Origin: Actinomadura logoneensis
GTDB taxonomy: Bacteria > Actinomycetota > Actinomycetes > Streptosporangiales > Streptosporangiaceae
Length of the DNA: 64,000 nucleotides
NCBI RefSeq assembly: GCF_003428695.1
Contig: NZ_QURH01000338.1
Coordinates: 1 to 64,000, forward strand
Reading direction: 5' to 3'
Under the pieces are notes generated by a model, which saw only the letters and a list, made by a program, of their open reading frames with translations, searched no databases and had not been told where the DNA came from. Below, one piece after another: positions 3,047-48,405 of this stretch. A program made the translations under genes and the position numbers. Each line of letters opens with the position of its first letter. Positions within the stretch are counted from its first letter, which is position 1.

Positions 3047-3050
3047 CCGG

Positions 3051-29894: not shown

Positions 29895-29993
29895 GCCGGC
29901 AACGGGGTAGAGGTGCTTGCGACCTTCCACCCCGTCACGCCGTGCCCTGTGCTAACAAGTGAACGGCGCCTGTGACTCTGGGTGAGGAGAACC

Positions 29994-32900: not shown

Positions 32901-33095
32901 GCGATCGAGACGCGTAGTCGCGAAGAGATCCGCCAGTACCAGAACGACCGCCGCTCCTGGGAGCACCGTCTGAGGCGGCTCGCCGACGAACGGGACCTGG
33001 AACTGCAACAGATCGCGGCCCGCTACGCCGCTCCGCAGTCCCACTCCTTCCCCGTCGCCGTGATCTTCGTCGTGCCGCAGCGAGAGGCCCTCTGA
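29994..33095 (+). CDS. drmD: DISARM SNF2-like helicase DrmD
   Basis: The large SF2 Snf2/HepA-like ATPase that defines class 1 DISARM phage defence. Walker A reads ADDVGLGKTIEAG (about residues 133-145), Walker B LLVLDEAHH (about 250), motif III LFLSATPHNG, and the helicase C lobe runs through VLLATDAASEGIDLQ to QRIGRIDRYGQ (about 565-612). The rest is long helical regions of unknown role. Length 1033 residues fits the family. Start is the GTG at 29994 with GGTGAGGAG upstream, not the earlier in-frame codon at 29982. It is one base from drmMI, so the two are an operon. It is expected to act with the methylase and DrmAB to block incoming unmodified DNA. Confidence 0.9.
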   Translation: MASTATDQKPVPGALVQVRGQRWVVSGVDERGTSSLVTLQSVEDGRYGDTLSVIWEVEPGRRTLPSGSLPEVAKDRFDSPERLAAFLDAVRWGAVASADVKTLQAPFRSGVTIEDYQLEPVARAMDAPRVNLLLADDVGLGKTIEAGLVVQELLLRQRAHRILIVCPAGLTVKWRDEMAEKFGLEFTVIDSERCAEVRRTHGSAANPFEVYPHAIVSLPWLRGPKAQRLLDEVLPPDGPAYPRTFDLLVLDEAHHVAPAAPKQVYAVDSQQTKLIRKLAPHFTHRLFLSATPHNGYQASFTALLEVLDDQRFARGMDPDPSAVKETVVRRLKRQIVTADNKPRFTRRDAREILVRYPEDELEIHGLLKQFAETRRRRLKQVKGRKAADLVTLLLKKRLFSSPAAFARTVGVYMETLQHKGKPALAPEDEWLDDFLDETATLDDEALDEAETDALARTQPLIEKEDDELALLKRMHDWALAHEAQPDAKAKELIDYLTAICKPGDEWTNERVIVFTEYRDTKDWLRDLLRSQGFGADRVAELDGSMGASEREALRLAFQKSPAEHPVRVLLATDAASEGIDLQNHCHRLVNYDIPFNPNKLEQRIGRIDRYGQTETPEIRHFVGTGWDKAVDSYEADLEFLSRVAKKVAQMEEDLGSVNAVLADAVQRRLLGEQVDVEAETARAAKKDKIPADSNVGEQVRKLHETVQATIQELHISPPGIKRVVDTALELARQQPLKEAVDPDPGVYEVPILTGSWERASAGLLEKLPPEGREPRQLPITFDQAVAKGRDDLVLAHLGHPLVAMSTRLLRAAVSNDKIDLNRVTAVVYDDDDLESTLVAAFSRFVLVGADGVRLHEEVLHAGGWAPENGRFRRWENVNRFGDLLDRALTHGHAATGRIHERLAARFDTLRPGLESAIRWRTDTRRESLERQLAQRQDAESKRIIANIEQFSAALRDKLAQGDEEDTLFSAIETRSREEIRQYQNDRRSWEHRLRRLADERDLELQQIAARYAAPQSHSFPVAVIFVVPQREAL

Positions 33096-33096
33096 G

Positions 33097-36000
33097 ATGC
33101 CCCGTTTCCCCAAGCACAAGTCCGCCGAGTTCAACCACAACGACTGGTTGAGCCTGATCGACGTCTCGGGGCCCTTCCTCAGCATCCCGGTGCTGCGCCG
33201 CGCCTGGCCCACCCTGGACGCCCTCGACAAGGCGACCCGCGAGCGACTCCGCCTGGAGCACACGGCCCTCCCGGGCGCTGAGTGGATCAATTACGTCCTC
33301 ACCGGACTGCTCGGCTGGGACGAGGCCGTCCACTTCGAGGGACTCGACGCCCTCGCCATGGACGTCCCGGAGCACGAGACCGAGGTCGTCCCGTCGTTCG
33401 CCCTGCTGGAGCCCGGCACCGCACCCGGAAGCGATGCCAAGCCCGTCCGTCTTCTCGGCCTGATCACCGAGGACAGTCCGACCAGACGAGTCAAGGACTC
33501 GGCCTGGGCGGCGACGCCGGTGGACCGCCTCGCCCAGCTCTGCCGCCATCACGACGTGGAACTCGGCCTCGCCACCGACGGCCGATGGTGGGCGCTGGTC
33601 TGGGCACCACGCGGCGGCGTGACGGCGACGGCCGTCTTCGACGCCGTGAACTGGCACGAAGCCGCTGAGCGGGACGTCGTTCGCGCGTTCGTCTCGTTGC
33701 TGCGCCGGGAGCGGTTCTTCTCGGTGCCGGACGACGAGACCCTCCCGGCGCTGCTCAAGGCCGGCCTGGACAACCAGGAGGAGATCACCGAGGCGCTCGG
33801 CGTCCAGGTGCGGCAGGCGGTGGAACTGCTGGTGGCCGCCATCGGCCGCGCTCACACGCGCGACAAGGACCAGGGCGGCGAGGGCCTCGGCGACATCTCG
33901 GCGCACGAGGTCTACCGCGGAGCCGTCGCGGTGATGATGCGCGTGGTGTTCCTGCTGTTCGCCGAGGAGCGCGGCCTGCTGCCGTCCGACAAGGAGCTCT
34001 ACCGGACGGCCTACTCGGCGGGCCTGCTCTGCCAGGAACTCGAAGAGCGCGCGGTCAAGGGCAGCGAGGAGGACCTCGAGCACACCCACACCGGATGGCA
34101 CCGGCTGCTCGCCCTGTTCAACGCCGTCTACCACGGCGTCGACCACCCCGACATGCAGATGTCCGCGCTCGACGGCTCGATCTTCGACCCGACCACGTAT
34201 GCGTGGCTCCCGCACGCCATCGACGACCGGACGGTCCTGCACATGCTGCGGTCGGTCCAGCACGTCACGATCGGCACGGGCAAGTCGCGCGAGCGCCGCA
34301 AGCTGTCCTTCCGCGCACTGGACGTCGAGCAGATCGGTTACGTGTACGAGGGCCTGCTGGCCTTCGAGGGCTTCTACGCCACCGAGACGATCGTCGGGCT
34401 GGTCGGCAAGGCGGGCCTCGAGGAAGAGGTCGCGCTCAGCGCGCTGGAGAACTTCGCCGCTCAGTCGCCGGACGTCCCGACGCTGGCCGCCACGCTCGCC
34501 AAGGAGTACAAGGACTCCGGGATCGGCTCGGCGAAGGCGCTGGAGAAGCGCCTGGCACCCCTCTCGGACGCCGACAAGCAAGAGGCCCGCCGCCGCCTGC
34601 TCGCGGTGACCAACGGCGACTACCCGCTGGCCGAGCGCCTGCTGCCGTTCTACGGCCTCATCCGCACCGACCTGCGCGACCTCCCGGTGGTGATCCTCAC
34701 CGACGCGCTGTACGTGACCGAGTCGTCCCTGCGGAAGAACACCGGCACCCACTACACGCCGCGCTTCCTCGCCGAAGAGGTCGTCGAGGGCGCCCTCGAA
34801 CCACTGGTCTACGAACCGGGCCCCCTCCAGACGGCCGACAAGAGCCAGTGGAAGCCGAAGTCCTCGAAGGAGATCCTGGACCTCAAGGTCGCCGACATCG
34901 CGATGGGCTCGGGCGCGTTCCTGGTGGCGGCCTGCCGCTACCTGGCGGGACATCTGATCGAGGCCTGGGCGCGCGAGGGCGAGGAGGGCGCGCGCGAGTT
35001 CCTGGACCAGCCGGGCTACGAGACGGCCGACATGGACGCGGACCCGGTCGTCATCAAGGCCCGCCGCAAGGTCATCGAGCACTGCCTGTACGGCGCGGAC
35101 ATCAACGAGATGGCCGTGGAGATGGCCAAGCTCTCGCTCTGGCTCGTCTCGATGGACCCGCACCGCCCCTTCACCTTCCTGGACGACCGCCTGATCACCG
35201 GCGACTCCCTCCTCGGCATCACCTCACTCGACCAGCTCGAAGTGATGCACATGGACCCGAAGCGCGGCCGCGAACTGCACAAGGACGCCCTGCTCGACTG
35301 GACAGCCGGAGCCCGCGAGGTAGCCCGCGACATCGCCGCCAAGCGCCGCGCCATCACCGCGATCGAAGGCACCACCCTCGAAACCCTGGCCGCCAAGCGC
35401 GCCCTGCTGAAGGAGACCGAGGAAGAAGTCCAGGAAGCCTGGTTCTACGCCGACCTAACCGTCGCCGCCGCTCTCGCCCATGCGAAGAAGGGGCCCACCG
35501 GGCTGGACACCGCTTCCATCCTGGCTTCAGGAGCCGCCCAGGAAGCCGCCTCCTCGGGCCGGATTAACCCGGCTTCCTGCGACGAACTTAGCGAGTGGCT
35601 GAACAAGGACGTGTCGGCCCACGCCTTCCGTCGCCAACCGATCCACTGGCCGCTGGTCTTTCCCGAAGTCTTCGCTGAGGGAGGCTTCGACGCCGTCATC
35701 GGAAACCCGCCCTTTCTGGGGGGGACTAAAATTACTGGACCGCTGGGTATGGCTTATCGAGAATACCTTAGCGAGGTGGTTGCGGGAGGAGTGCGCGCAA
35801 GCGGCAGGGCTGACCTTGTTGCATATTTTCTTCTCCGTGGGCAAGGCCTACTCGTTGGATCTGGTCAGCTAGGAATCGTTGCAACTAATACTCTGGCCCA
35901 GAGTGACACGCGAGAAGTTGGACTCGATCAGATCATTTCGGGAGGGAGTTGTATTCGCCGGGCTGTCAAGAGCGCGCCTTGGCCATCAAAGTCGGCAGCG

Positions 36001-37122
36001 CTAGAGTATTGTGAAGTATCCATTACGCGCGCTTCAATGGGAAGAGAGGCCAGCTACGTACTTAATGGTGAGCAGGTAAAGTCAATCACTGCGGCACTCG
36101 AAGTTGGGTCCAGAGTTTCTGGAAGCCCTTTCCGCTTGCGAGCCAGTCAGGGAATTTCTTTCCAAGGCTGGAAATTGGACGGCATGGGGTTTGTGCTAAC
36201 TCCAGATGAGGCCCGGGCACTGCTGGACCGTGACCCGGTCAACAGGGAAGTCATAATGCCCTATATCGTAGGGCAGGATGTTAACTCGCGGCCAGATGTC
36301 TCGGCGAGTCGATGGGTAATAAACTTTCGAGATTGGTCACAGGATCAAGCTTCAAAATATAGCGACCCGTTTGCGCGAGTGGTCTCTCTAGTAAAGCCCG
36401 AGAGGCAGGAGAATAATCGGAAGAGTCATCGCGAAAGATGGTGGCAGTTTGCCGAAACCCGCCCAGGTCTGGTTAGGGCTATTTCTAAACTCGACAGAGT
36501 CGTCGTCATCACCTTGCACACAAAATTTGCAATTCCAGTTTTCGCCCAGACCGGGCAAGTGTTCTCGCATGCATTGGGTGTTTTTGCATCCGCCGACCCG
36601 TCAATGCTGACGCTATTGAGTAGCTCTCCTCATTTTTGGTGGGCTGTAAAATGGTCATCCACCTTGGGGGGGACGATTAGATACACATCTTCCGATGTCT
36701 TTGAAACGCTTCCCCTCCCTGAAATGACTCAGGAGATGCGGGAACTGGGAGATAGGCTCGATCGGGTCCGGAGGAACGTGATGCTTGCGCGACTATCTGG
36801 GTTGACGGCCACGTACAATCTCGTTCACAGTCAGGCGAACAATGATCATGACATTGTGGAGCTGCGGGAAATTCACAGGCTGGTCGACGAGGCTGTTTGC
36901 CGGGCGTACGGATGGGGCGACTTGATTCCACAGCTCGCTCACGACTACTACAGTCTTGGGCACGAGACTCGCTACACCGTCGCCCCAGCAATCCAGCGAG
37001 AGTTTGTCGATCGCCTGCTGGAGCTGAACCACGAACGGTACGCCGCCGAGGTCGCTGCCGGCCTGCATGACAAGAAGGGGAAGAAGAAGGCTCAGAAGGT
37101 CGAGAATCCCGGCCTCTTCTAG
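33097..37122 (+). CDS. drmMI: DISARM class 1 adenine methyltransferase DrmMI (Eco57I-type)
   Basis: A 1341-residue N6-adenine DNA methyltransferase of the Eco57I/PglX type that marks self DNA in class 1 DISARM. The SAM-binding motif I is DIAMGSGAFLVAA (about residues 600-612) and catalytic motif IV is IGNPPFLGG (about residue 870). The target-recognition part follows. The DNA from about 35700 to 37000 is clearly more A+T-rich than the rest of the gene and its neighbours, as if the recognition domain was exchanged by recombination. The C-terminus ends in a basic KKGKKKAQK tail. It starts one base after drmD and is followed by a strong terminator. A full-length paralogue lies at 54678. Confidence 0.9.
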   Translation: MPRFPKHKSAEFNHNDWLSLIDVSGPFLSIPVLRRAWPTLDALDKATRERLRLEHTALPGAEWINYVLTGLLGWDEAVHFEGLDALAMDVPEHETEVVPSFALLEPGTAPGSDAKPVRLLGLITEDSPTRRVKDSAWAATPVDRLAQLCRHHDVELGLATDGRWWALVWAPRGGVTATAVFDAVNWHEAAERDVVRAFVSLLRRERFFSVPDDETLPALLKAGLDNQEEITEALGVQVRQAVELLVAAIGRAHTRDKDQGGEGLGDISAHEVYRGAVAVMMRVVFLLFAEERGLLPSDKELYRTAYSAGLLCQELEERAVKGSEEDLEHTHTGWHRLLALFNAVYHGVDHPDMQMSALDGSIFDPTTYAWLPHAIDDRTVLHMLRSVQHVTIGTGKSRERRKLSFRALDVEQIGYVYEGLLAFEGFYATETIVGLVGKAGLEEEVALSALENFAAQSPDVPTLAATLAKEYKDSGIGSAKALEKRLAPLSDADKQEARRRLLAVTNGDYPLAERLLPFYGLIRTDLRDLPVVILTDALYVTESSLRKNTGTHYTPRFLAEEVVEGALEPLVYEPGPLQTADKSQWKPKSSKEILDLKVADIAMGSGAFLVAACRYLAGHLIEAWAREGEEGAREFLDQPGYETADMDADPVVIKARRKVIEHCLYGADINEMAVEMAKLSLWLVSMDPHRPFTFLDDRLITGDSLLGITSLDQLEVMHMDPKRGRELHKDALLDWTAGAREVARDIAAKRRAITAIEGTTLETLAAKRALLKETEEEVQEAWFYADLTVAAALAHAKKGPTGLDTASILASGAAQEAASSGRINPASCDELSEWLNKDVSAHAFRRQPIHWPLVFPEVFAEGGFDAVIGNPPFLGGTKITGPLGMAYREYLSEVVAGGVRASGRADLVAYFLLRGQGLLVGSGQLGIVATNTLAQSDTREVGLDQIISGGSCIRRAVKSAPWPSKSAALEYCEVSITRASMGREASYVLNGEQVKSITAALEVGSRVSGSPFRLRASQGISFQGWKLDGMGFVLTPDEARALLDRDPVNREVIMPYIVGQDVNSRPDVSASRWVINFRDWSQDQASKYSDPFARVVSLVKPERQENNRKSHRERWWQFAETRPGLVRAISKLDRVVVITLHTKFAIPVFAQTGQVFSHALGVFASADPSMLTLLSSSPHFWWAVKWSSTLGGTIRYTSSDVFETLPLPEMTQEMRELGDRLDRVRRNVMLARLSGLTATYNLVHSQANNDHDIVELREIHRLVDEAVCRAYGWGDLIPQLAHDYYSLGHETRYTVAPAIQREFVDRLLELNHERYAAEVAAGLHDKKGKKKAQKVENPGLF

Positions 37123-37142
37123 CTGACGCGAAGCCGTCCGCG

Positions 37143-37176
37143 GGGTGCGCCCGCACTGAAGGGCGCGCCCTCTTTT
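37143..37176 (+). terminator. Intrinsic terminator after drmMI
   Basis: GGGTGCGCCC (37143-37152) and GGGCGCGCCC (37161-37170) pair over ten positions with one G-U wobble around an 8-base loop, followed by TCTTTT. It is the best-formed intrinsic terminator in the window and ends the drmD-drmMI transcript. Confidence 0.85.
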
Positions 37177-37297: not shown

Positions 37298-38941
37298 GTG
37301 GAGTCCCCTGTCTCACGTGCGGAGCGCGTAGCTGAATGGCGGCGCAAACGGAACGCGCGTGTAGCCGCCATTCGCGCCGGACGGAGTGCTGCCGACCCGG
37401 TGGTCGAAGGGTGGGCCGCGCTCGGGGTGCAGGGTGAGGACACGATCGGGGGGCTCCGGAAGGCGATCACCCTGCTGCTCGGCGTTCCCGGTCTCCCCGC
37501 TCATCTCGTCAGTTCGGTCGAGCGCTCCATGGGAGGGCGGCCGGAGTCGTCGCTTCCCGGCGAGGTCAAGGCGATTCTCGGGACGCTGCCGGTCGAGCAG
37601 GCCGTCGCTCACCTGGACGAGCTGCTTCAGGCGGGCGCGCCCTGGATGACGGACCTCGGCCGCCGCAAGGTCCAGGTTCTCGCGTTCGAGGATCCGCGTG
37701 CCGGACGCATCAAGCTTCCGAGCCGAGACGTGTTAGAAGGCCCCTTCGCGTGGCGGCTCTACCTCGCGGCGCTGGGGCATCCGGCCTCGGTCACGGCCGT
37801 CGAGATGCGGCGTGCGACGGGGAACCTGCCGCTTCCCGTTCTGGACGACCTGTTGGACGCCGGGCTCGTGGGTTTTGAAGACGCGCCCTGGGAACGTCGC
37901 GAAGCCGACTCCGAACGCCGCTACCTGACGGCTCGGCTCGTGCCCGCGATGGTCGGCAGGCAGGACGCCGTGGCGCTCGGCTGGCAGGAGATGGAACGCC
38001 GTCACCGTTTCCTCGACGGTGAAGACCTCTCCGAAGGCGACGACATCTACGCCCTGCTCAGCGCCTTCTGGAAGGGCGACTCTCCGGACATCTCTCTGCG
38101 GACCCGGCTGAGCCCGTCCGGGCAGGTGCTCTACGACGAGATCCTGCTCGGCGTCCAAACCGAACGCTGGCCCGCGCACATCGTCAAGGACCGCGCCCTC
38201 TGGTCTCTGCTCGCCACGCGGTGGACTCCCAGCGGGCTGATCAACCCGTCCGTCAGCGACTTCCACATGTGGCGGGCCCTCTACAACTGCTACCGCTGGC
38301 TGCTCGCCGGGATGTTCGACCGCGTCCGCTCGCAGTTGACGCCACTCGTCGACCTCGCCGAGGAGAAGCAGCCGCAGGACGCCGGCGAGGCCCGCGTCCA
38401 GATGTGCGCCGAGGCGCTGGTCATGCGGGCTTACCTGGATCTGGAGACCAACGACTTCGCCATGGCGAGGAAGCGCCTGGAGCGCATCGGCCGCCGGCAT
38501 CCCGTCATCCAGCAGAACATCGACTACATCCGGCGTGCCGAGCTGAAGAAGCGGAACGAGCTCGACTACTGGGAGAACCCCTACCTGGTGCTCGGGGTGT
38601 CGCACGGGTCGCACGAGTGGCTGGACCAGTGGCGCTCCCTGGTCAAGCTCGTCCGCGACGACGTGCGCAAGCGCGGCCGGATCAACCGCGCCAAGCGCCG
38701 CCTGGAGGCGGCCGAACGCGATGGTGACGGGGACTTCTACCGCCTTCCCCTCGACGAGAGCCTGTTCGTCCTTCCGCGTGAGCGTTCGGTAGCCCTGTTG
38801 CCGCCCATCGAGCCCATGCCGCGCCGGACGCTCCCGGCCACTCCCGAAGACCTGGCCGAGCTGCGTGCTCGCGCCATCGAGACCGTGCTGGACGAATTCG
38901 CCGCCGTGCCACCGTCGGCGCTGAGTGAGGAGTCATCGTGA
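37298..38941 (+). CDS. Helical-repeat protein with degenerate J-domain-like segment
   Basis: A 547-residue protein I cannot assign to a named family. The middle (about residues 340-425) looks TPR-like (EALVMRAYLDLETNDFAMARKRLERIG). Residues 427-472 align with a DnaJ J-domain: NPYLVLGV matches the NPYEVLGV opening, W445-R446-S447-L448 the YRKL helix II, and INRAKRRLEAA helix III. The HPD tripeptide needed to stimulate Hsp70 is replaced by R453-D454-D455. GTG start at 37298. Its stop overlaps the next start (GTGA), and an Hsp70 gene follows, which supports a co-chaperone role (inference). Without HPD it may bind rather than stimulate the Hsp70. Confidence 0.6.
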   Translation: MESPVSRAERVAEWRRKRNARVAAIRAGRSAADPVVEGWAALGVQGEDTIGGLRKAITLLLGVPGLPAHLVSSVERSMGGRPESSLPGEVKAILGTLPVEQAVAHLDELLQAGAPWMTDLGRRKVQVLAFEDPRAGRIKLPSRDVLEGPFAWRLYLAALGHPASVTAVEMRRATGNLPLPVLDDLLDAGLVGFEDAPWERREADSERRYLTARLVPAMVGRQDAVALGWQEMERRHRFLDGEDLSEGDDIYALLSAFWKGDSPDISLRTRLSPSGQVLYDEILLGVQTERWPAHIVKDRALWSLLATRWTPSGLINPSVSDFHMWRALYNCYRWLLAGMFDRVRSQLTPLVDLAEEKQPQDAGEARVQMCAEALVMRAYLDLETNDFAMARKRLERIGRRHPVIQQNIDYIRRAELKKRNELDYWENPYLVLGVSHGSHEWLDQWRSLVKLVRDDVRKRGRINRAKRRLEAAERDGDGDFYRLPLDESLFVLPRERSVALLPPIEPMPRRTLPATPEDLAELRARAIETVLDEFAAVPPSALSEESS

Positions 38942-39720
38942 AGAAGGCCGGGGCGCGTAGGACCGGTGACGGTCGGAGCTCAGGGAAACGCCCTCGCAGG
39001 CCGCCGAACACCTCGTACGCCGACCAGCAGATGGAAATCGACTTCCTGGACCCGTACATCGATCGGATGGACGCCGAAGTCGAGCGACGGGTCGGCGTCA
39101 TGGGCGACGAAATCAAGCAGCTTCTACGCGATACCCTCCGTCAATTCCAGCGCTCGGCCGGTACTTCGGCCAAGCAGAACAGCTTTTCCAAAGAGTCGGC
39201 TACTTCCCGGGAAGCGGAGGTTCAGCGGCTGGTGGAAAAGCAGTTGAGCAGTATCGCCTCGGGGCGGGCCAAGCTCGAACCCGATGCTGTATATGAGCGT
39301 TTCGGCAATATTGTCCGCTATGAATTGAAGCAGCAGCGTTCTTCTGTCTCGGACTTCTCGGACGAGCAGATCGCGAAGATTCTTCGAAGCGCGGTGCTGG
39401 AGGGTTTCCGGAGTCGTCGGCTCCACTTGGCCCACCTCACCAAGCTGCAGCGGGCCGCCGAAACCGGTGATTTCGACAAGATCTCCTACTTGTTGAACAC
39501 GGCGTTCGCCGAGGCGGGGCTCAAGAAGATCTTCGACTGCGAGCAGTTCCCGGAGTACTTCGCCTTCCCCTCTTCGGCCGACGAGACGGCGGAGTTCGAG
39601 GTGGACGAACCCGCCTGGGTCGACGAGCTGACCGGGCAGGTGGTCCGGCGGGGCAGGGTCCGCGTCATGGAAGTGGAAAGCCCGATCGAGGAGGTCGGCG
39701 GGGACGGGGGCACGGAGTGA
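38938..39720 (+). CDS. Unknown protein, possibly GrpE-like, between J-like and Hsp70 genes
   Basis: A 260-residue acidic protein. After a basic disordered start, residues 30-75 are a likely coiled coil (MDAEVERRVGVMGDEIKQLL). The C-terminal third ends in a short beta-rich block (WVDELTGQVVRRGRVRVMEVE) that recalls the last strands of GrpE, where a GY...G-x-V-L-R-P-A-x-V-x-V pattern occurs. Coiled coil plus small beta domain next to an Hsp70 gene would fit a nucleotide-exchange factor, but the resemblance is weak and no diagnostic residue is seen. It overlaps both neighbours by four bases (GTGA twice), so the three proteins are made together. Base composition is a little more A+T-rich than neighbours. 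Confidence 0.5.
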   Translation: MKKAGARRTGDGRSSGKRPRRPPNTSYADQQMEIDFLDPYIDRMDAEVERRVGVMGDEIKQLLRDTLRQFQRSAGTSAKQNSFSKESATSREAEVQRLVEKQLSSIASGRAKLEPDAVYERFGNIVRYELKQQRSSVSDFSDEQIAKILRSAVLEGFRSRRLHLAHLTKLQRAAETGDFDKISYLLNTAFAEAGLKKIFDCEQFPEYFAFPSSADETAEFEVDEPAWVDELTGQVVRRGRVRVMEVESPIEEVGGDGGTE

Positions 39721-41804
39721 TCGCGGGAATCGACTTCGGGACGACGAACTCGGTCGTGGCCCAGTGGGCCGGGGGCGACGTCGAGGTTTTGGCGCTGGAC
39801 GGGGAGCACCTCGAAGACGAGTGGTTCTACCCGTCTTTCGAGAGCCTGTTCCCTACGGTCGTCGGGGAGAGTTCGGCTCGGCTGGGGACGCTGTTCGGCT
39901 GGGAGGCCAAGCTCCAGGGCAACCGCGTCATCGAAGCGTGCAAGCGGATGCTGCGCAGCGACGGCGGCATCCAGCTGCGCGACCGGCGGGTCTCCGCGAC
40001 GGCGGTGGCCGCCGGGGTCTTCCAGGCGATGCGCGAGCGCGCGGAACGCAACCTGACGAGCATCGACAGCGCCGTCATCACCGTTCCCGCCAATGCCAAG
40101 GGCGGTGCCAGGTACCGGACGCGCGCCGCCGCTCGCGCCGCCGGCATCGAGGTCAAGGCGCTGCTGAACGAGTCGACCGCCGCCGCGCTCTCCTACATGC
40201 ACGACGTCCCGGAGGAGGGCACCGTGATGGTGTTCGACTGGGGCGGCGGCACGATCGACGTGACGGTCCTCGAACACCAGGACGGGATCTTCGAGGAACG
40301 GGCCTCGCGCGGCATCACCCAGCTCGGCGGCCTGGAGATCGACAAGCGGCTGCGGGAGCTGCTCGTCCAGAAGATGGGACGCACGCCCGAGCTGTCGGAC
40401 GACGACCGGCGCCAGTTCGACCTGGCCGTGGAGCGGACGAAGATCCGCCTGTCCACCGAGGAGTCGGTGCTGACCCGGGTTCCCGGCAACGGCAGGCTCA
40501 TCGAGGTCACCCGGGCGGAGCTGGAAGGGCAGATCGCCGACCTGGTGGAGCGGGCGCTCGAACCGGCGCGGATGTGCCTGAACGATCTCGGCATCGGCCC
40601 CACCGGCATCACCGACATCCTGATGATCGGCGGAACGAGCCAGATGCCGTGCGTCCGCGCGGCCGTCGAACGGCTCATGGACGCTGAGACCGTCCCCGCG
40701 CACATCTGCCACCCGATGACCGCCGTCGCGCGCGGAGCCGCCATCGCCGCCGCGATCCTGAACAAGGAGCTCGACAGCTTCCTGCAGGTCTCCTCGATGT
40801 ACGCGCTCGGCACGACCGTCCGGCCGGAGGAGCTGAGCGAGCCGAGGTTCAGCACGATCATTCCGCCGAGGTCGCCGCTGCCCGCGGTGGAGAGCAAGAA
40901 CTACAAGCCGAACCGGGACTTCGCGGAGGGGCTCAAGCTGGAGATCTGGGAGGCGGATCCTGACAAGCCGCTCGACCATCCGGAGAACTTCCAGCTCACC
41001 ACGCTCGCCGTCCGTTTCCCGCGTCCGGCGGTGCGCGACGACTCGACCTTCACATTGGAGTACACCTACCAGGAGAACGGCCTGCTCCATGTGAAGGCGA
41101 TCCAGGACCGCGACCAGCGCGTCCTCCTCGACCAGGAGATCACCGACTTCACCCACGGACAGACGCTCACGGTGCAGGAGATCCAGCGGGAGATGAGGAC
41201 CCTCGACGTGGCCCGTCCGGCTCCGTCGGCCTTCTCCCCGCAGTTCACGGAGCCGACCGAACCGTGGCAGCCCGTGCGGCCGAGGAAGCCGGTGCCGACC
41301 CCGACGCCGCAGACGGTCCGTCCGATACCGGTCGCGTCGCCGCAGACGGCGGCCCGGCGGTTCGTGGTGGACGGTTCGAACATCGCCTGGCTCAACCGGG
41401 ACGTGAAAGCCGGAGACAAACCGAGTTTCACCGCACTGTGCGAGGCGGTCGAGGCGCTGAAGGCGCAGAACCCCGGATGCGTCGTGGACATCGTGGTGGA
41501 CGCCGCCCTCGCCCATCAGCTTCCCCACCCCGAACGGCGGCGACTGGAGAAGGGGAGAAGATCCGGGGAGGTGACGCAGGTCCCCGCGGGGACGGCCGGG
41601 AAGGCCGACCGTCTCGTCTGCACGGTCGCCGAACGCACTCATGCCGTGATCGTGACCAACGACAGCTTCAAGGAACTTCAGAGCGAGTTCTCCTGGCTAT
41701 GTGACGAGGGACGCCTGCTCGGCGCGTCCTACGTCGGAGGCGAATGGGTCTTCCTCGAACGCAGGCCCGTCCGGCCCCGCAGGGATTCCCTCAACGGGGG
41801 TTAG
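39717..41804 (+). CDS. Hsp70-family ATPase fused to a NYN/PIN-like nuclease domain
   Basis: A 695-residue fusion. Residues 1-345 form an Hsp70 nucleotide-binding domain: phosphate loop GIDFGTTNS (4-12), second loop MVFDWGGGTIDV (about 171-182), ITVPANAKGGARYRTRAAARAAG, and the adenosine loop ILMIGGTSQMP. Residues 345-490 resemble the beta substrate-binding domain (FSTIIPPRSPLP, ENGLLHVKAI). The helical lid is missing; instead a proline-rich linker (about 510-545) leads to a NYN/Zc3h12a-like nuclease fold: FVVDGSN (D552), VDIVVDA, KADRLVC and VTNDSF supply four aspartates for metal binding. It could use Hsp70 gating to control RNA cleavage (inference). GTG start overlaps the upstream stop. Confidence 0.8.
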   Translation: MIAGIDFGTTNSVVAQWAGGDVEVLALDGEHLEDEWFYPSFESLFPTVVGESSARLGTLFGWEAKLQGNRVIEACKRMLRSDGGIQLRDRRVSATAVAAGVFQAMRERAERNLTSIDSAVITVPANAKGGARYRTRAAARAAGIEVKALLNESTAAALSYMHDVPEEGTVMVFDWGGGTIDVTVLEHQDGIFEERASRGITQLGGLEIDKRLRELLVQKMGRTPELSDDDRRQFDLAVERTKIRLSTEESVLTRVPGNGRLIEVTRAELEGQIADLVERALEPARMCLNDLGIGPTGITDILMIGGTSQMPCVRAAVERLMDAETVPAHICHPMTAVARGAAIAAAILNKELDSFLQVSSMYALGTTVRPEELSEPRFSTIIPPRSPLPAVESKNYKPNRDFAEGLKLEIWEADPDKPLDHPENFQLTTLAVRFPRPAVRDDSTFTLEYTYQENGLLHVKAIQDRDQRVLLDQEITDFTHGQTLTVQEIQREMRTLDVARPAPSAFSPQFTEPTEPWQPVRPRKPVPTPTPQTVRPIPVASPQTAARRFVVDGSNIAWLNRDVKAGDKPSFTALCEAVEALKAQNPGCVVDIVVDAALAHQLPHPERRRLEKGRRSGEVTQVPAGTAGKADRLVCTVAERTHAVIVTNDSFKELQSEFSWLCDEGRLLGASYVGGEWVFLERRPVRPRRDSLNGG

Positions 41805-41831: not shown

Positions 41832-41867
41832 TTGTCGTAGGCATGTGCTTGTGTACTCTATACACAA
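41832..41867 (+). promoter_or_regulatory. drmABC promoter overlapped by a GntR-type operator
   Basis: -35 TTGTCG (41832-41837) and -10 TACTCT (41854-41859) are 16 bases apart. A 19-bp perfect inverted repeat, TTGTGTA-CTCTA-TACACAA (41849-41867), covers the -10. Its form matches operators of GntR/HutC-type repressors. No GntR gene exists in this window, so the regulator acts from elsewhere. drmA starts 28 bases downstream. Confidence 0.7.
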
Positions 41868-41894
41868 CGTCTTCAAATGTTGGCTGGAGTGTCC

Positions 41895-44800
41895 ATGGCT
41901 GGGAGTATCGACGGACTGTTCCACGATCCGCGGGGAGAGCAGCTCCCCGTGGGGCATGACGCGCAGGAGGTCGGGCAGGACGCCGAGCCGGTCGCCCCCC
42001 TCGACCAGCCGCAGGACTTCGCCGAGGCGACCTCGTTCCAGGTGCGCGACGAACTGGAGGATCTGGTCCGTCGCGACCTGCTCGGTCCGTGGGACGGGCC
42101 GTCCGAGCGGTTCCACCCCAGGGCCATGGGCCCGCGCGAGCGTTACCTGGTCGGGATGCTCGGCCCTCGACACACCCCGTCGTCCGTGACCGACGAGGCG
42201 GGCGAGGTGCAGGACAACGACACCGGTGTGGAGGGCGACGCGTCGGACGCCGAGCTGCCCGACGTCGTCAGCCCCCAGGCGCTCGGCAAGCTGTGGGCGT
42301 CGTCCATGGGCCTGTCCTTCTGCGTGGACGCCGCCATCGACGCCGTGTCGGTCCGGGCCGCGTGGGGGCGGTACGACAAGCACGACGAGGAAGACGAGAA
42401 CGGCAAGAAGATCCGGCCCTGGGCGCGCAAGCAGGAGGACCACGAGAAGGAGGTGCGGCTCGACGCCGAACCCTCCTACAAGATCCCGCTGACGATGGAC
42501 GACCCGGAAGCGCCGGGGGTGCTGCTCAGCGTCGGCGTCCGGCAGCGCGACGGCAAGCGGATCGTCGAGCTCGCCCTGGTCAACGCCCAGGCCGAGCCGC
42601 CCAGTAACAAGGACACCGCCTGGCTGTTCCAGCCGGAGCTGACGGTGACCGCCCTGGACGGCGCCAAGCCGGTCTTCCTCCCGGTGGACGACCCCCTCGA
42701 CGATCGCGAGATCGCCGAGGACGACCCGGAGGAGCTCCACCTCCGCCTGCTCTACCGGAACGAGCGCCGGTACGCCGCCGGTCGCAACGTCGCCGTCCAC
42801 GCCGACATCGAGCCCGGCGAGCGCCGCGCGCACCGGCTCGTCACCACGTGGCTGCCCGTCTACGACGTTCCCGCGACCGTCGCCCCGACCGGTCCCGGCA
42901 CGCCGCTGGAGCACGTCGAGCTGTCCATGGACGCGCTGGCCGAGGCGACGCCGGAGCAGCTCAAGGCCGGTCTGCGTCCGCTCGTGGACGGTTACGAGAA
43001 GTGGCTCGACCAGTGTGAGGCCGAGATCCCCGGTCTGCCCGCCACCCTCCGCGAGACCGCCGAACGCGCCGTCGCCGACGCCCGCCGGGCGGCGTCCCGG
43101 ATAGCCGCGGGCGTCGCGTTGCTCACCGATCCGAGCACGCCCCGGCACGCCGAAGCGCTCCAGGCGTTCCACTTCGCCAACGAGACGATGGCGCTGCAAC
43201 GCCGTAACACCCAGATCGGCGCGCTCCGCGAAGAGGGGCTCGGCTACGCGGAGGCCGAGCAGAAGGTCGCCGAGCGTGGCGCGAAGGCGGCGAGCTGGCG
43301 TCCGTTCCAGCTCGCCTTCGTCTTGCTCAACCTCCCCTCGCTCACCGACCCGGGCCACCCGGAGCGCGCGGCCGACCACACCGCCCTGGTCGATCTGCTG
43401 TTCTTCCCGACCGGCGGTGGCAAGACCGAGGCCTACCTCGGGCTGATCGCCTACACCCTCGGCATTCGCCGCCTCCAGGGTCTGCTCGGATCGGGGGAGG
43501 ACGCGCGTGACGGGCTCGCCGGAGTCGCCGTCCTCATGCGCTACACCCTGCGCCTGCTGACCGCCCAGCAGTTCCAGCGGGCGGCTGCCTTGATCTGCGC
43601 CGCCGAGGTGCTGCGTCAACGCGATCCGCAGATGTGGGGGACCGAGCGGTTCCGGATCGGCCTGTGGGTCGGCGCCGGCGTCTCCCCGAACTGGTTCGAG
43701 GATGCCAAGGAGCAGGTCGTCGAGGCGCGCGACGCGGGCAAGGGCAACCGCGCCAATGTGCTCCAGACGCTCGCCTGCCCCTGGTGCGGTGAAGGACTGC
43801 GCGCCGAGCGCGACCTGTGGATCGACGAGGACCGGCGCCGCGTCCTGCTCTACTGCCACCGCGGCGAGGGCGAGGACGCCTGCCCCTTCTCCAAGCGCAA
43901 GGCGAACGGTGAGGGACTGCCCATCCTCACCGTGGACGAAGAGATCTACCGTTACGCGCCGAGCCTGGTCATCGCGACTGTTGACAAGCTTGCCCAGCTT
44001 CCCTGGAAGGGCTACGCGGGCATCCTGTTCGGCCGCATGCGGAGCCACTGCGACCGGCACGGCTTCCGCCATGACGACCTTGACGACAGGATCGGCTGCG
44101 CGGGCAAGCACAACAAGAAGGGCGCCCTCCCCGCGATCACCGCGCAGCCGGTCGTCCGGCTCCGGCCGCCGGATCTGATCATCCAGGACGAGCTGCACCT
44201 GATCTCGGGCGCGCTCGGCACCACGGTCGGTCTGTTCGAGGCGGCGGTGGCGGAGCTGACGTCCTGGCCCTTCGGGGAGCACCGCACCGGCCCGAAGATC
44301 GTGGCTTCCACCGCGACCACCAAGCGCTCCCGGCAGCAGGTGCTCGGTGTGTTCGGCCGCGATCTGGCCGTGTTCCCGCCCCAGGTGATCGATGCGTCCG
44401 ACACCTTCTTCTCCGAGCAGAAGCCGGTCACGCCGGAGACCCCGGGACGCCGCTACCTCGGAGTGTGCGCGCACGGAGTGCGCTTGAAGTCGGCCGAGAT
44501 CCGCCTCGCGGAGATCCTGCTGCTGGCCGGGCAGACGCTGTTCGACAAGTACGGTGCGCCCGCCGACCCTTACATGACCCTGGTCGGCTACTTCAACGCC
44601 ACCCGCGAGCTGGCCGGGATGCGCCGCTACCTGGACGACGACGTGACGACCCGCGTCCGGCGCCACGGCCGTGCGAAGGGCCTGTCCGACCGCGTCATCG
44701 GAAACTCCCTCCTCGTCATCCAGGAACTGACGTCCCGCATCTCCTCCGGTGACATCAGCGACGTGCTCAAGCGGCTGGAACACGGCTTCGACCCCGAGAT

Positions 44801-45737
44801 CGACACCCATGCGCGGCGCAGCGAGGCCGCCGCCGAGATGCGCCGGATCATGAAGGCCCGCAAGGAATCCCGTTCCGCCGAGAAGGCGCCGGCGCCGCAC
44901 CCGCTGGCGGAGCGTTTCTACGATCGGCAGCGCGCCGGGCTGACTCCGGTCGATGTGGTTCTGGCCACCTCGATGCTTCAGGTGGGGGTCGACGTGCCGC
45001 GGTTCGGCCTCATGGTGATGACAGGCCAGCCGAAGAACACCGCCGAGTACATCCAAGCGTCCTCGCGGGTCGGCCGCGAAGCGACCAAGCCCGGCCTCGT
45101 CGTCACTCTCTACAACTGGTCGCGTCCCCGGGACCTCGCCCATTACGAGGACTTCGAGCACTACCACGCGACCTTCTACCGCCAGGTCGAAGCCCTTTCG
45201 GTGACCCCGTACACCCGCAGAGCCCTGGACCGCGGTACGACCGCGACCCTTGTCGCCGCCGTCCGGCAGGCGGTGGAGGAGTACTCCCGCAATCGGGACG
45301 CCTACGACGTCGATCTGGAAGGCCCGATCGTGCAGGAGGTCATCGACCGGATGCTCGTCCGCGCCGAGGCCGTCGCGCACGAGCGCGGACGAGACTATCT
45401 GGCCGAGCGGGTCAAGCGCGTGACCGACCTGTGGGAGACCCAGAAGAACCAGGGCTCGACGAGGCTCGGCTACCAGGACGGCACGTGGAACAAGCAGGTG
45501 ATCCGCGGGCTGCTCGAACCGGCGGGCAACGGCAGGTGGGGCGATCTCACCGCCGGGATGTCCATGCGGGAGACCGAGAACGAGATCAACCTGCTTCTCC
45601 CCGGTGGTGACGCGTTGTTCAAGCCGGTCTACAACGAACCCGCGTGGTCGTTCGGTCCGCCCGTCGAGACCGAGGACGACGACGCGCCCGCCGGTGACGA
45701 GCTCGGCGAGACCGCCCTGAACGGGAAGGGAGCATGA
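41895..45737 (+). CDS. drmA: DISARM helicase DrmA
   Basis: The core SF2 helicase of DISARM, 1280 residues, which with DrmB forms the complex that recognises and blocks invading DNA ends. Walker A is FFPTGGGKTEAYLG (about residue 503), the DExH box is IIQDELHLISG (about 762), followed by STATTK, and the C lobe has VVLATSMLQVGVDVPRFG and QASSRVGRE (about 1030-1058). The family signature of a long N-terminal region rich in acidic residues is present. The ATG at 41895 has GGAG five bases upstream; an ATG six codons earlier lacks it. It overlaps drmB by four bases (ATGA). Confidence 0.93.
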   Translation: MAGSIDGLFHDPRGEQLPVGHDAQEVGQDAEPVAPLDQPQDFAEATSFQVRDELEDLVRRDLLGPWDGPSERFHPRAMGPRERYLVGMLGPRHTPSSVTDEAGEVQDNDTGVEGDASDAELPDVVSPQALGKLWASSMGLSFCVDAAIDAVSVRAAWGRYDKHDEEDENGKKIRPWARKQEDHEKEVRLDAEPSYKIPLTMDDPEAPGVLLSVGVRQRDGKRIVELALVNAQAEPPSNKDTAWLFQPELTVTALDGAKPVFLPVDDPLDDREIAEDDPEELHLRLLYRNERRYAAGRNVAVHADIEPGERRAHRLVTTWLPVYDVPATVAPTGPGTPLEHVELSMDALAEATPEQLKAGLRPLVDGYEKWLDQCEAEIPGLPATLRETAERAVADARRAASRIAAGVALLTDPSTPRHAEALQAFHFANETMALQRRNTQIGALREEGLGYAEAEQKVAERGAKAASWRPFQLAFVLLNLPSLTDPGHPERAADHTALVDLLFFPTGGGKTEAYLGLIAYTLGIRRLQGLLGSGEDARDGLAGVAVLMRYTLRLLTAQQFQRAAALICAAEVLRQRDPQMWGTERFRIGLWVGAGVSPNWFEDAKEQVVEARDAGKGNRANVLQTLACPWCGEGLRAERDLWIDEDRRRVLLYCHRGEGEDACPFSKRKANGEGLPILTVDEEIYRYAPSLVIATVDKLAQLPWKGYAGILFGRMRSHCDRHGFRHDDLDDRIGCAGKHNKKGALPAITAQPVVRLRPPDLIIQDELHLISGALGTTVGLFEAAVAELTSWPFGEHRTGPKIVASTATTKRSRQQVLGVFGRDLAVFPPQVIDASDTFFSEQKPVTPETPGRRYLGVCAHGVRLKSAEIRLAEILLLAGQTLFDKYGAPADPYMTLVGYFNATRELAGMRRYLDDDVTTRVRRHGRAKGLSDRVIGNSLLVIQELTSRISSGDISDVLKRLEHGFDPEIDTHARRSEAAAEMRRIMKARKESRSAEKAPAPHPLAERFYDRQRAGLTPVDVVLATSMLQVGVDVPRFGLMVMTGQPKNTAEYIQASSRVGREATKPGLVVTLYNWSRPRDLAHYEDFEHYHATFYRQVEALSVTPYTRRALDRGTTATLVAAVRQAVEEYSRNRDAYDVDLEGPIVQEVIDRMLVRAEAVAHERGRDYLAERVKRVTDLWETQKNQGSTRLGYQDGTWNKQVIRGLLEPAGNGRWGDLTAGMSMRETENEINLLLPGGDALFKPVYNEPAWSFGPPVETEDDDAPAGDELGETALNGKGA

Positions 45738-47653
45738 CGATGACCGAGACCGCGCAGTTCTACCGCCGGGTCGGAAGCGTCCGTCCGAGCCATCTGATGT
45801 ACACCGGCGGTGTCGGCGCCCTGGTGGACCTGCCGAACTTCTCCGTCCTGGTCAAGGGCCTGGACGACTGGGAGCGGTACCTGGAGTACACGCCGCAGAT
45901 GCCGATCGCCGAACCCCGGCTGCTGACGGCCGTTCAGAAGGTCCTCGGCAAGTCCGTGGTCTCGCTCAGGGAGGCACCGTGGCTGGAGGGGCTGGACAAG
46001 GACCCCAAGGGCCCCGCGTCCAAGCTCGGGGTCCCGGTCGCGCCGTTCCCCGCCTGGTTCCGCTGCACGGCGTGCAACGAGCTCGCCGGCCTCGACTCGG
46101 GAGTGTTCGGTTTCGAGAACTCCAAGCCGCGGAAGCCGCACGAGGCCAAGTTCTTCCACGACAAGTGCTCCAGGTCCAAGAAGCGTCCGCTCGCGGTGGC
46201 GGCCCGTTTCGTGCTCTCCTGCATCAACGGCCATCTCGACGAGTTCCCCTACGTCAACTTCGTCCATAAGGGCCTGCCCTGCCCGAAAGCGTCGCATCCT
46301 CGGCTGCGCATGGACGACCGTGGCGGGAATCTCGGCGCGAACGTCGAGATCGTGTGCATCAACTGCAACGAACGCCGCAACATCCGCGAGGCGCAGGGCA
46401 AGCGCGGGGAGCAGAACCTTCCGCGCTGCCGGGCGAGGCATCCGCACCTGGTGGTGTTCAACCCGCAGGGCTGCACCGCCGACCCGAAGATGCTGGTCGT
46501 CGGGGCCTCCAACCAGTGGTTCGCGCAGACCATGTCGGTTTTGAACGTCCCGCGGACCGGGGCGAGCGAGTTGGAGACCAAGGTCGAGCAGCATTGGGAC
46601 GCCGTCTCGGCGCTCCCCTCGACGATGTACGAGTGGGCGCGCAACAACGCTCCGGCCTTCAAGGAGCTCAGGGACTGGTCGGACGAGGAGATCGCGGCGG
46701 CCGTCGAAAGGCTCCGCGGGAAGATGACGGGCGGCGGGGACGACCAGCAGGACGCCAAGAAGATCCCCGACCTCCGTACTCCCGAGTGGGAGATCTTCTC
46801 CGCGCCCAAGCTTCCCGATCCCACCGAGGACTTCACCCTCCGGCGCGACCTCGACGGAGTTCCGGAGCGGCTGACGGACGTCTTCGCCGACGTCCTCCAG
46901 GCCGAGCGGCTCCGTGAGGTCCGCGCGCTGATCGGTTTCACCCGTCTCGACGCTCCCGACCCAGAAGATCCCGAGATGGTGAAGAGCGTCACGCTCGCCC
47001 GCTCCAACCCCACATGGGTGCCCGCGAGCGAGGTCCGCGGCGAGGGCATCTTCTTCAGGCTTCCCGAGGACGTCGTCCAGGAGTGGGAGAAGCGGATCGC
47101 CGACTCCGAGGCCGTGCGGCTGCACCGTGAGGCGTACGGGCGGTACCGGCAGAACCGGTACTCCGACCGGATCCAGAACATGGCCGAGTTCGACCCGATG
47201 CACCTGTGGCCGGGTGCCCGCTACATCGCCTTGCACACGCTGTCCCACCTGCTGATCCGCACGATCTCGCTGGAGTGCGGCTACAGCTCGGCCAGCCTTT
47301 CCGAGCGGATCTACTCCGGTACCGAGGACGATCCGCACCGCGCGGGCATCCTCATCTACACAGCCGTCCCCGACGCGGACGGAACTCTGGGAGGCCTGGT
47401 CTCGCTAGCCGAACCCGACCAACTCGTCCGGCTGACGCGGCGGGCGCTCGCCGACGCCCGGCACTGCTCCTCCGATCCGTTGTGCTGTGAGCGGCTCCCG
47501 CAGGCTCCGGCGGACTTCCTGCACGGCGCAGCGTGCCACGTGTGCCTCTTCGTGTCCGAGACGACCTGCGAGCGCGGCAACAAGTTCCTGGACCGCAGGT
47601 TCGTCGTGCCGGTGGACCAGCCGGATCTGGCGCTGTACCCGGAGCTGCCGTGA
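45734..47653 (+). CDS. drmB: DISARM protein DrmB (DUF1998)
   Basis: The DUF1998 partner of DrmA, 639 residues. It carries several cysteine clusters likely to bind zinc: FRCTACNE (about residue 112), VCINCNE (about 210) and a C-terminal set around CCERLP, ACHVC and TTCERGN (about 584-613), which is the DUF1998 core. DrmB tightly binds DrmA and controls its DNA loading in characterised DISARM. Start overlaps the drmA stop, and its stop overlaps the drmC start (GTGA), so drmABC is translationally coupled. Confidence 0.93.
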   Translation: MTMTETAQFYRRVGSVRPSHLMYTGGVGALVDLPNFSVLVKGLDDWERYLEYTPQMPIAEPRLLTAVQKVLGKSVVSLREAPWLEGLDKDPKGPASKLGVPVAPFPAWFRCTACNELAGLDSGVFGFENSKPRKPHEAKFFHDKCSRSKKRPLAVAARFVLSCINGHLDEFPYVNFVHKGLPCPKASHPRLRMDDRGGNLGANVEIVCINCNERRNIREAQGKRGEQNLPRCRARHPHLVVFNPQGCTADPKMLVVGASNQWFAQTMSVLNVPRTGASELETKVEQHWDAVSALPSTMYEWARNNAPAFKELRDWSDEEIAAAVERLRGKMTGGGDDQQDAKKIPDLRTPEWEIFSAPKLPDPTEDFTLRRDLDGVPERLTDVFADVLQAERLREVRALIGFTRLDAPDPEDPEMVKSVTLARSNPTWVPASEVRGEGIFFRLPEDVVQEWEKRIADSEAVRLHREAYGRYRQNRYSDRIQNMAEFDPMHLWPGARYIALHTLSHLLIRTISLECGYSSASLSERIYSGTEDDPHRAGILIYTAVPDADGTLGGLVSLAEPDQLVRLTRRALADARHCSSDPLCCERLPQAPADFLHGAACHVCLFVSETTCERGNKFLDRRFVVPVDQPDLALYPELP

Positions 47654-48405
47654 ACTCGCCTTTGAAGCGGTTCGCGTCGGCCGCCGCCGCGCCGGCGGCC
47701 AGGCTCGGTCCCACGCGCCTTCGTGTCCTGGCGGATCGTGTCGGCCGTGGGGACCTCTACCGCATTCGTGAGGCGATGCCAGAGTTCGCCGCGGACGTGG
47801 AGGCGGTATTGGCCGCCCGTGACGACGAAGGCGATCTTCCTTCTGCCACGGTCGCCGCCTTCTTGGAGGGCATGGCCGCCGCGCTGGCGCAGCAGGAGGC
47901 CGCGGTGCGAGTGGAATCGGTCTGGTCCGGGCCGGTCACTCATGCGGTCCCCGTTCGCTCGACGGCTCAGGTGCTCGCGCAGCTCATCGGCCATGCGCGG
48001 CACGAGCTGATCCTCATGACCTACTCGGCCAAGCCTCATCCGCCTGTCCGCGATGCGATCGCGGTGGCCCTGGAGCGCGGTGTGCGGGTCCGGGTCGTGG
48101 TCGAGACGCTCCAGGGCGCCGGCAGTGCGATCTCCGGCGAGGAACCCGCGGCGGCCTTCCACGGCCTGAACGTGGAGTTGTGGCACTGGCCGGTCCTCAG
48201 GCGCCCCGGACAGAAGGGGAAGATGCACGCGAAGATCGCCGTGGCCGATCGGCGGGAACTGCTGGTCACCAGCGCGAATCTCACCCAGTCGGGGGCCGAC
48301 GCCAACATCGAGGCGGGCCTGCTGGTGCGCGGCGGCTCGGCCCCGCAGCGCGCGGCCGAGCATGTCGACCAGCTACGGACCGACGGGGTTCTGGAGCGGC
48401 TGTGA
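47650..48405 (+). CDS. drmC: DISARM phospholipase D-like protein DrmC
   Basis: A 251-residue PLD-superfamily protein, the third DISARM core component. One HKD motif is seen at H193 (MHAKIAVADRRELLVTSANLTQSG region); the first, degenerate half is around MTYSAKPHPPVRDAIAVAL. PLD-like nucleases with one good HKD act as dimers. DrmC is dispensable for protection in the Bacillus system, so its role here is uncertain. The GTG at 47650 overlaps the drmB stop; the longer frame to 47533 overlaps drmB coding sequence and is rejected. Confidence 0.9.
   Translation: MNSPLKRFASAAAAPAARLGPTRLRVLADRVGRGDLYRIREAMPEFAADVEAVLAARDDEGDLPSATVAAFLEGMAAALAQQEAAVRVESVWSGPVTHAVPVRSTAQVLAQLIGHARHELILMTYSAKPHPPVRDAIAVALERGVRVRVVVETLQGAGSAISGEEPAAAFHGLNVELWHWPVLRRPGQKGKMHAKIAVADRRELLVTSANLTQSGADANIEAGLLVRGGSAPQRAAEHVDQLRTDGVLERL

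Follow-up and report, generated by a model that had tools for sequence, protein, structure and literature searches.

The Hsp70 chaperone cycle is driven by J proteins and GrpE, and class 1 DISARM comprises drmD, drmMI, drmA, drmB and drmC. Among the described systems closest to the locus analyzed in this study, the GTPase-centred GAP1-N2 conflict systems, which are common in actinobacteria, were predicted to contain HSP70, GrpE and FNIII-DnaJ/TPR proteins (Kaur et al. 2020, eLife, PMC7159879), and the CoCoNuT type IV restriction systems include the Hsp70 homologues CnuD and CnuCD, with nucleotide-binding domain (NBD) and substrate-binding domain (SBD) units (Bell et al. 2024, eLife, PMC11090510). 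Additionally, bNACHT25 needs host DnaJ for phage detection (Conte et al. 2025, PMC12169576). Statements drawn from these papers, and from the two further ones cited below, concern parts of each publication. The locus of this study lies in a stretch of 64,000 nucleotides from Actinomadura logoneensis (RefSeq assembly GCF_003428695.1, contig NZ_QURH01000338.1, positions 1 to 64,000), referred to as the window. It consists of three genes, the triad, that stand within a class 1 DISARM locus and encode a TPR-like and J-like protein (protein 1), a GrpE-like protein (protein 2) and an Hsp70 fused to a NYN-type RNase (protein 3). The data presented here indicate that the triad is a conserved gene set with mostly defence-related neighbours, and that it may be a chaperone-gated RNase effector.

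Protein 3 (695 aa; gene 3, 39717..41804, + strand) was assigned with Pfam. Its PF00012 match (202 bits), strongest over positions 101-509 of the 599-position profile, corresponds to the Hsp70 ATPase domain and the substrate-binding beta domain, SBD-beta (residues ~1-480; 39717..41156). The match stops at position 509 and leaves the lid part of the profile unmatched; in its place there is a Pro-rich linker and then a Zc3h12a-type NYN RNase domain (residues 547-677; 41355..41747) that scored 36.8 bits with PF11977 against a cut-off of 23. The residues examined for conservation are those which we take to be catalytic from DnaK and the Zc3h12a RNases. Eight ATPase residues (D6, T9, T10, K65, E152, D174, T179 and D181) were identical in 39/39 aligned Hsp70 homologues, window included. 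The NYN aspartates D552, D595 and D631 were kept in 37/37 loci and D649 in 36/37 (Gly in locus L033), counts that exclude L062, where the contig has the gene out of frame, and L065, where the contig end leaves the NYN out of view. This suggests that the catalytic residues of both enzymes are under strict constraint. The first-pass annotation of this DNA, made from the letters alone, had described three genes with GTGA overlaps between drmMI and drmA, the last of them an Hsp70 ATPase domain joined to a four-aspartate NYN-type nuclease, and both the layout and the fusion were confirmed: the overlaps are at 38938 (genes 1/2) and 39717 (genes 2/3), and the triad lies between the end of drmMI (37122) and the start of drmA (41877).

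In 39 distinct loci, the window and 38 others, the J-like and GrpE-like genes immediately precede the Hsp70 gene and share its strand, with genes in the collected loci called by a custom script. This number omits L040 and L061, which are duplicates of L025 and L032, while L044 and L046 share one Streptomyces phaeofaciens genome. The GrpE-like gene was located via clustering in L033 and L034, and in L028, L030 and L070 at least one triad gene was seen by tblastn and was not placed in its cluster by the gene caller. Since 38 other loci have the three genes arranged alike, chance is excluded, and what was noticed in a single locus is a conserved set. Protein 2 was matched in 16/249 genomes of the window's order, 13 of these being NYN triads (window included) and 3 a sister cassette described below. 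In a sample of 394 genomes of the class, where searches scored at most three and two candidates a genome (at most three for protein 1), the protein 1 profile matched in 10, several only partially. When 84,980 species genomes were scanned by pattern, at least 593 stretches matched, of which 413 were confirmed and 80 loci kept; at least 28 were triad loci, 26 of them new to the set, and among the matches listed all were in Actinomycetota. Gene 1 had no match in 72,556 plasmid records, and gene 3 had no relative in one viral-contig scan.

Protein 1 (547 aa; gene 1, 37298..38941, + strand, defined by its open reading frame and homologues) gave nothing significant in profile searches with Pfam, PADLOC, NCBIfam and PDB sequences. 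Its AlphaFold2 (AF2) model, made from 33 sequences, has a mean predicted local distance difference test score (pLDDT) of 90.6 and is nearly all alpha, and TPR folds align to model residues ~306-419 with Z ~8-11, values that the tool warns are common for helical repeats. The C-terminal part, which reads 'NPYLxLG...WRxL...', matched a profile of 23 J-domains by hhalign with an E of 4-5e-5 (probability 68-69%), and 0/100 column-shuffled nulls were as good. Within this J-like domain (residues ~427-480; 38576..38737, + strand) the predicted helices at 441-451 and 456-475 are separated by a loop, which fits helix II - loop - helix III, and RDD stands at 453-455 where HPD is expected. The HPD motif was present in 0/33 aligned protein 1 homologues, with its last Asp kept in 27/33. 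Because HPD is absent, protein 1 is named J-like and not a J protein, and the J-likeness of its C-terminus is best called weak but specific.

Protein 2 (260 aa; gene 2, 38938..39720, + strand), a putative nucleotide exchange factor assigned by AF2, Foldseek and hhalign, had no match in Pfam (PF01025 included), PADLOC, NCBIfam or a PDB-sequence profile search. The AF2 model (32 sequences; mean pLDDT 79.6; predicted template modelling score, pTM, 0.46) shows long helices and then a C-terminal beta domain. In a Foldseek search against PDB, 5 of the 6 best matches were GrpE or GrpEL1 (3a6m_B, E 3.4e-3; 3a6m_A, 1.0e-2; then 1dkg and two GrpEL1 chains, 0.39-0.47), with no E below 0.001 and TM-scores of 0.17-0.29 by query length. 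VIA-align matched the C-terminal helix and beta wing (residues 178-248; 39469..39681, + strand) to 1dkg_A (Z 5.1, root-mean-square deviation 3.6, 69 aligned residues), 4ani (Z 4.8) and 8gb3 (Z 4.2). Against a profile of 21 GrpE sequences from related genomes, hhalign gave E values of 1.3e-4 to 3.5e-4 (probability 38-54%), and again 0/100 column-shuffled nulls were as good. It should be noted that the J and GrpE comparisons by hhalign were single pairs chosen by hypothesis, not database searches; the crossed controls gave 0.51 for the J-like part with GrpE and 0.037 for the GrpE-like tail with J. The proposal of the first-pass annotation that the first two proteins are J-domain-like and possibly GrpE-like therefore stands in part: profile comparison favours both and the fold modestly favours the second, with GrpE chains heading the fold search, if weakly, whereas the first lacks HPD and neither is seen by Pfam, PADLOC or NCBIfam. 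For protein 2 as well, the likeness to GrpE appears weak but specific.

A sister cassette without the NYN was found in 10 loci (L035-L037, L066, L067, L071-L075), nine in Actinomycetota and one in an Acidobacteria bin. It contains a TPR-like protein of ~860 aa, a J-like protein of 128 aa, a GrpE-like protein and an Hsp70, except that the GrpE-like match is missing in L074 and that the 128-aa gene is missing in L072 and placed after Hsp70 in L071. As aligned from L035-L037, the large protein is homologous to protein 1 residues 155-403 (E 1.4e-13) and the 128-aa protein to residues 430-542 (E 9.6e-10). Since the TPR-like and J-like proteins are separate genes in the sister cassette, two fusions mark the NYN clade relative to it, one of TPR with J-like and the other of Hsp70 with the RNase. 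The NYN clade has no lid, and the sister Hsp70 keeps a short C-terminal tail with a YxYLL-like motif at its end in most. In the Hsp70 tree, for which the root is the midpoint only, the 10 sister rows were split from the 39 triad rows with support of 100/100.

A defence gene was found nearby in 35/39 triad loci compared to 1/10 sister loci and 1/44 other Hsp70 loci, where a call meant a match to a fixed reference set at E 1e-10 or better over at least 100 aligned residues; several of the references had their origin beside triads, and the controls include some short contigs, both of which favour the triad. These counts contradict the idea that such triads would occur mainly outside defence islands. 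The neighbours are varied. DruE-like YprA helicases adjoin the triads of L025, L026, L028, L030, L033 and L064, and kinase-YprA fusions adjoin those of L051, L052, L055, L059 and L065, three of which show a full DrmD/BrxHII-like helicase. This YprA-plus-BrxHII layout resembles ARMADA as described in PMC12458937, a likeness by description only. A UvrD/GajB-like helicase of 1157-1303 aa lies 77-286 bp upstream of the triad, on the same strand, in nine loci, which belong to eight named Streptomyces and one unclassified actinobacterium. LeoBC/LeoA dynamin-like GTPases adjoin L041, L062 and L069, and the other neighbours are AIPR/AbiU (L029, L032), type ISP/IIG (L031, L033), NsnA (L056, L057) and HsdM-like methylases. 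In the tree, two DruE-linked triads and two triads that lack a recognised defence neighbour form the group in which the window Hsp70 is nested (100/99); the second triad beside DISARM falls in a distant, mainly Streptomyces group. This placement suggests that the module has switched neighbours and has met DISARM at least twice.

The triad was also tried as a core component of DISARM, and this was rejected. Among 20 other fetched loci with DrmA over the cut-off, 0/20 have the triad, and of the 39/394 genomes with DrmAS over the cut-off, in searches that scored at most three and two candidates a genome, the window is the sole case with the triad alongside; one other genome of the 394 has both, more than 0.8 Mb apart. 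DISARM proper stands beside only 2/39 triads, the window and L049 (Streptomyces sp. SM10), where the triad adjoins the DISARM locus and is not inside it. Support is therefore lacking for making the module a part of DISARM, and for the first-pass suggestion that it senses damaged DISARM complexes specifically. Both drmMI and drmA are visible in 14 loci; they are adjacent in 8 and ~2.8-9 kb apart in 6 (L200, L208, L209, L211, L213, L218). Ten proteins were scanned from five of these six gaps, and the gap genes included EndoU nucleases (L208, L211), HipA with a RAMA/HSDR_N protein (L211), HTH-DUF5753 regulators (L218) and serine recombinases (L209, L213), with an HTH-peptidase gene also in L213. 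The varied contents suggest that the drmMI-drmA junction is a recurrent site for extra genes, with the triad being one of several.

Two of these gaps were of another kind. In L209 (8899-15628) and L213 (10302-16297) the 3' part of drmMI is repeated in inverted orientation next to a serine recombinase; in L209 the arms measure 1038 nt, are 84% complementary and stand 590 nt apart. The inserts of L209 and L213 were rejected as foreign cargo, as they resemble specificity-switch cassettes of drmMI, and they suggest that the target-recognition part of the DISARM methylase can be switched by DNA inversion.

Together, these observations are consistent with a model in which the triad is a self-contained, horizontally swapped, chaperone-gated RNase effector of defence islands, a reading to which about even chances are given. 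Counted in its support are the linkage in 39 loci, the constrained catalytic residues, the Hsp70's own partners, the defence context with changing partner systems, the absent lid, the two fusions relative to the sister cassette and the occurrence of EndoU and HipA at the same junction elsewhere. In this model the TPR/J-like subunit would be an adaptor that docks a trigger onto Hsp70, the trigger being either a client, phage-made or unfolded, or a partner helicase complex that has engaged phage DNA. Cycling between ATP and ADP, with the GrpE-like factor resetting it, would then move or cluster the NYN, which may hang from SBD-beta by the Pro-rich linker, and a NYN moved or clustered in this way would be licensed to cut RNA. 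Systems that target DNA, DISARM among them, would in this way be backed by a second line that acts through dormancy or abortively. The lack of HPD suggests that the J-like part could be a tether, a negative regulator or a stimulator by another route, and without the motif the RNase would be shielded from the housekeeping pool of DnaJ. We infer that gating would follow client or nucleotide state, that the target would be RNA, that the system would protect and that its action would end in dormancy or death with translation shut down. An Hsp70-gated RNase had already been proposed for this locus; of that proposal, the Hsp70 with its own J-like and GrpE-like genes, the NYN fusion and the defence context are supported, and sensing specific to DISARM is not. 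More broadly, and at less than even chances, the triad may stand for a general kind of chaperone-gated immune effector, in which a whole Hsp70 machine acts as a proteostasis sensor with an RNase as its lid, plugged in as a second line at DISARM, Druantia-, ARMADA- and UvrD-type loci, and in which phage is sensed by the appearance of clients and not by a particular phage molecule.

Several points weigh against the chaperone-gated effector. It is drawn from sequence and models. The J-likeness is a matter of one pairwise profile score and a helix pattern, and Foldseek and VIA-align with the whole protein 1 model listed mainly TPR-like and other helical repeats and no J-domain structure, which says little about the J segment. 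As HPD is lost in all 33 homologues, an ordinary J-stimulated cycle cannot be assumed and canonical cycling is doubtful. The likeness of protein 2 to GrpE is remote by hhalign probability, Foldseek E and TM-score, and unrelated helical chains reach equally high VIA-align Z on its helices. RNA, not DNA, is the probable target of the NYN by analogy with its family. The bias of the reference set and of the short control contigs is in the triad's favour, no recognised defence gene was found in 4/39 triad loci (L023, L024, L050, L058), where PADLOC had no match for six scanned neighbours, and the NYN is out of frame or out of view in two loci.

Of the other explanations, the one that survives best, although it is unlikely, is a non-toxic RNA-targeting arm, where the Hsp70 part would bind RNA or ribosome-nascent chains, as proposed for CnuD, and guide the NYN to viral mRNA with no self-harm. 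For Hsp70 homologues that stand beside RNases in defence systems, RNA binding has been argued (Bell et al. 2024, PMC11090510), and the intact NYN residues would suit such a role. However, the same source considers that CnuD homologues likely hydrolyse ATP with extremely low efficiency, whereas the tested ATPase residues of the triad are intact in 39/39, and the GrpE-like and TPR/J-like partners point to client cycling.

Rather less likely is that the triad is a dedicated assembly chaperone for large defence complexes in which YprA-family helicases join their partners, while the NYN would act on bound or blocking RNA or serve as a quality-control guard. A clear YprA-family helicase, meaning DrmA or at least 300 aligned DruE residues, was found in 14/39 loci, and in 8 it comes next after the Hsp70-NYN gene in the same orientation, with gaps of 72 bp to drmA in the window, 28-57 bp in L025, L026, L028 and L030 and ~120-140 bp in L051, L055 and L059. 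A looser tally of 19 loci was set aside, as it counts short pieces and matches to the kinase part. However, in 25/39 no clear YprA helicase is in view (in L056 and L057 a helicase is matched in part, at the edge of the locus), and the lack of the triad at all 20 other DrmA loci suggests that it is not needed for assembly. Least likely is a toxin-antitoxin-like or selfish module kept by addiction and not by antiviral use, with Hsp70-NYN as toxin and the J-like/GrpE-like pair as restraint, since the HipA and EndoU genes at the drmMI-drmA junction and the movement of the triad between neighbourhoods would fit this but the size and ATP cost of the module are unusually high for a simple toxin-antitoxin pair, its ATPase is strictly constrained and its neighbours are mostly defence genes.

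If chaperone gating of the RNase is true, then the Hsp70 cycle would directly control a nuclease effector in immunity, and the idea that bacteria guard their protein-folding state would take a concrete, testable form. It would also suggest a reason for the differing accessory genes at YprA-helicase loci, namely that effectors can replace one another at sites that recur. Whatever its mechanism, the triad is defined clearly enough as a gene set to enter defence annotation, and the PADLOC 2023 models gave no match for any of its three proteins.

The window locus is a class 1 DISARM in which all five genes were recognised with NCBIfam and PADLOC, all on the + strand: drmD (29982..33095; NCBIfam DrmD, 1382 bits; PADLOC), drmMI (33097..37122; PADLOC DrmMI, 1695), drmA (41877..45737; NCBIfam DrmAS, 1421; PADLOC), drmB (45734..47653; NCBIfam DrmB, 720; Pfam; PADLOC) and drmC (47533..48405, with a start maybe at 47650; NCBIfam DrmC_I, 234; PADLOC). 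The start of gene 1 at 37298 is plausible, as its homologues in L027, L028, L030 and L034 have starts giving 540-556 aa; in L023, L024 and L026 similarity to protein 1 reaches residue 1, yet there is no ATG, GTG or TTG there. A terminator-like hairpin 3' of drmMI (37142..37171, + strand), of a type no commoner in the scanned region than in shuffles, is a weak sign that the triad may be transcribed separately. A palindrome, TTGTGTA-N5-TACACAA, lies at 41849-41867 immediately 5' of drmA; a single half-site occurs 84 bases 5' of gene 1, and the palindrome was absent 5' of drmA in 20 other loci checked. An N6-methylase gene (27438/27510-29483) precedes the DISARM locus, and a Ser/Thr kinase-TPR gene (48498-50066) and a UvrD helicase (50069-52156) follow it. 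The guanine plus cytosine content drops from ~0.71-0.77 to ~0.60-0.71 across roughly 22-62 kb of the window, which fits the expectation for an acquired island.

Other genes of the window and of the collected loci were also noted. A GmrSD-type (type IV) restriction endonuclease domain, PF03235, is encoded at 52157-54463 (- strand) and has a homologue in the triad locus L033. After this convergent gene stands a second DrmMI-like methylase gene (54678-58667; PADLOC DrmMI, 1598 bits), ~17.5 kb beyond the end of the first. A UvrD-type helicase at 23114-25687 (- strand) is kin of the triad-preceding helicase of nine loci, although here it is ~12 kb off and on the opposite strand. In the window's own genome, contig C901 (L198) carries at 1105-3635 a further divergent Hsp70 with an adjoining weak GrpE match (43 bits). 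Among the triad loci, the kinase-YprA fusion is a 2134-aa protein at L051:12177-18581 (also in L052, L055, L059 and L065) in which an N-terminal Ser/Thr kinase is fused to a YprA/DruE-type helicase with an MZB domain. A protein of ~1100 aa (L025:4369-7680, with homologues in L026, L028, L030, L033 and L064) is linked to the DruE-like helicase and the triad and was matched by neither Pfam nor PADLOC.

No description of an Hsp70-NYN fusion or of the triad was found in the literature searched, which took in main texts and few subscription papers. The main text of the YprA preprint (PMC12458937) has no occurrence of Hsp70, NYN, GrpE, DnaJ or chaperone. DISARM class 1, ARMADA and Druantia are the YprA-family host systems beside triads, and their parts as described in the consulted portions of PMC9142583 and PMC12458937 include no Hsp70 machine. 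The bNACHT25 system is like the triad in that a chaperone can stand between the phage and a bacterial immune receptor, but it uses host DnaJ and, as far as PMC12169576 describes it in those parts, no dedicated chaperone set fused to a nuclease. The Zc3h12a/Regnase-type NYN RNases (PF11977) share with protein 3 the same Pfam catalytic family and the four aspartates, and differ in that the NYN of protein 3 is fused to Hsp70.

CoCoNuTs, like the triad, place Hsp70 units in defence with RNases, and their setting is often a superoperon shared with Druantia type III, BREX or type I restriction-modification (PMC11090510). However, the CoCoNuT Hsp70 is fused to McrB/McrC-type proteins or stands apart, is described as ATPase-poor and works with HEPN RNases (PMC11090510), whereas the triad has intact ATPase residues, a NYN as its RNase and J-like and GrpE-like partners, and there was no McrBC-type Pfam match among the scanned window genes between 23114 and 59834. 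The GAP1-N2 systems share with the triad a dedicated HSP70 and GrpE and a DnaJ- or TPR-bearing partner (PMC7159879), but the main text of that paper is without NYN, while in the triad the Hsp70 itself carries the RNase and both the lid and HPD are lost. General scans of the window genes gave no GAP1-N2 GTPase and no FNIII, with no GAP1-N2 profile search made. The triad's neighbours are instead DISARM, YprA-helicase and UvrD systems, with dynamin-like GTPases beside 3 triads (L041, L062, L069). Hsp70-containing conflict systems were thus already predicted, and what is new here, within the literature searched, is the Hsp70-NYN fusion and the triad.

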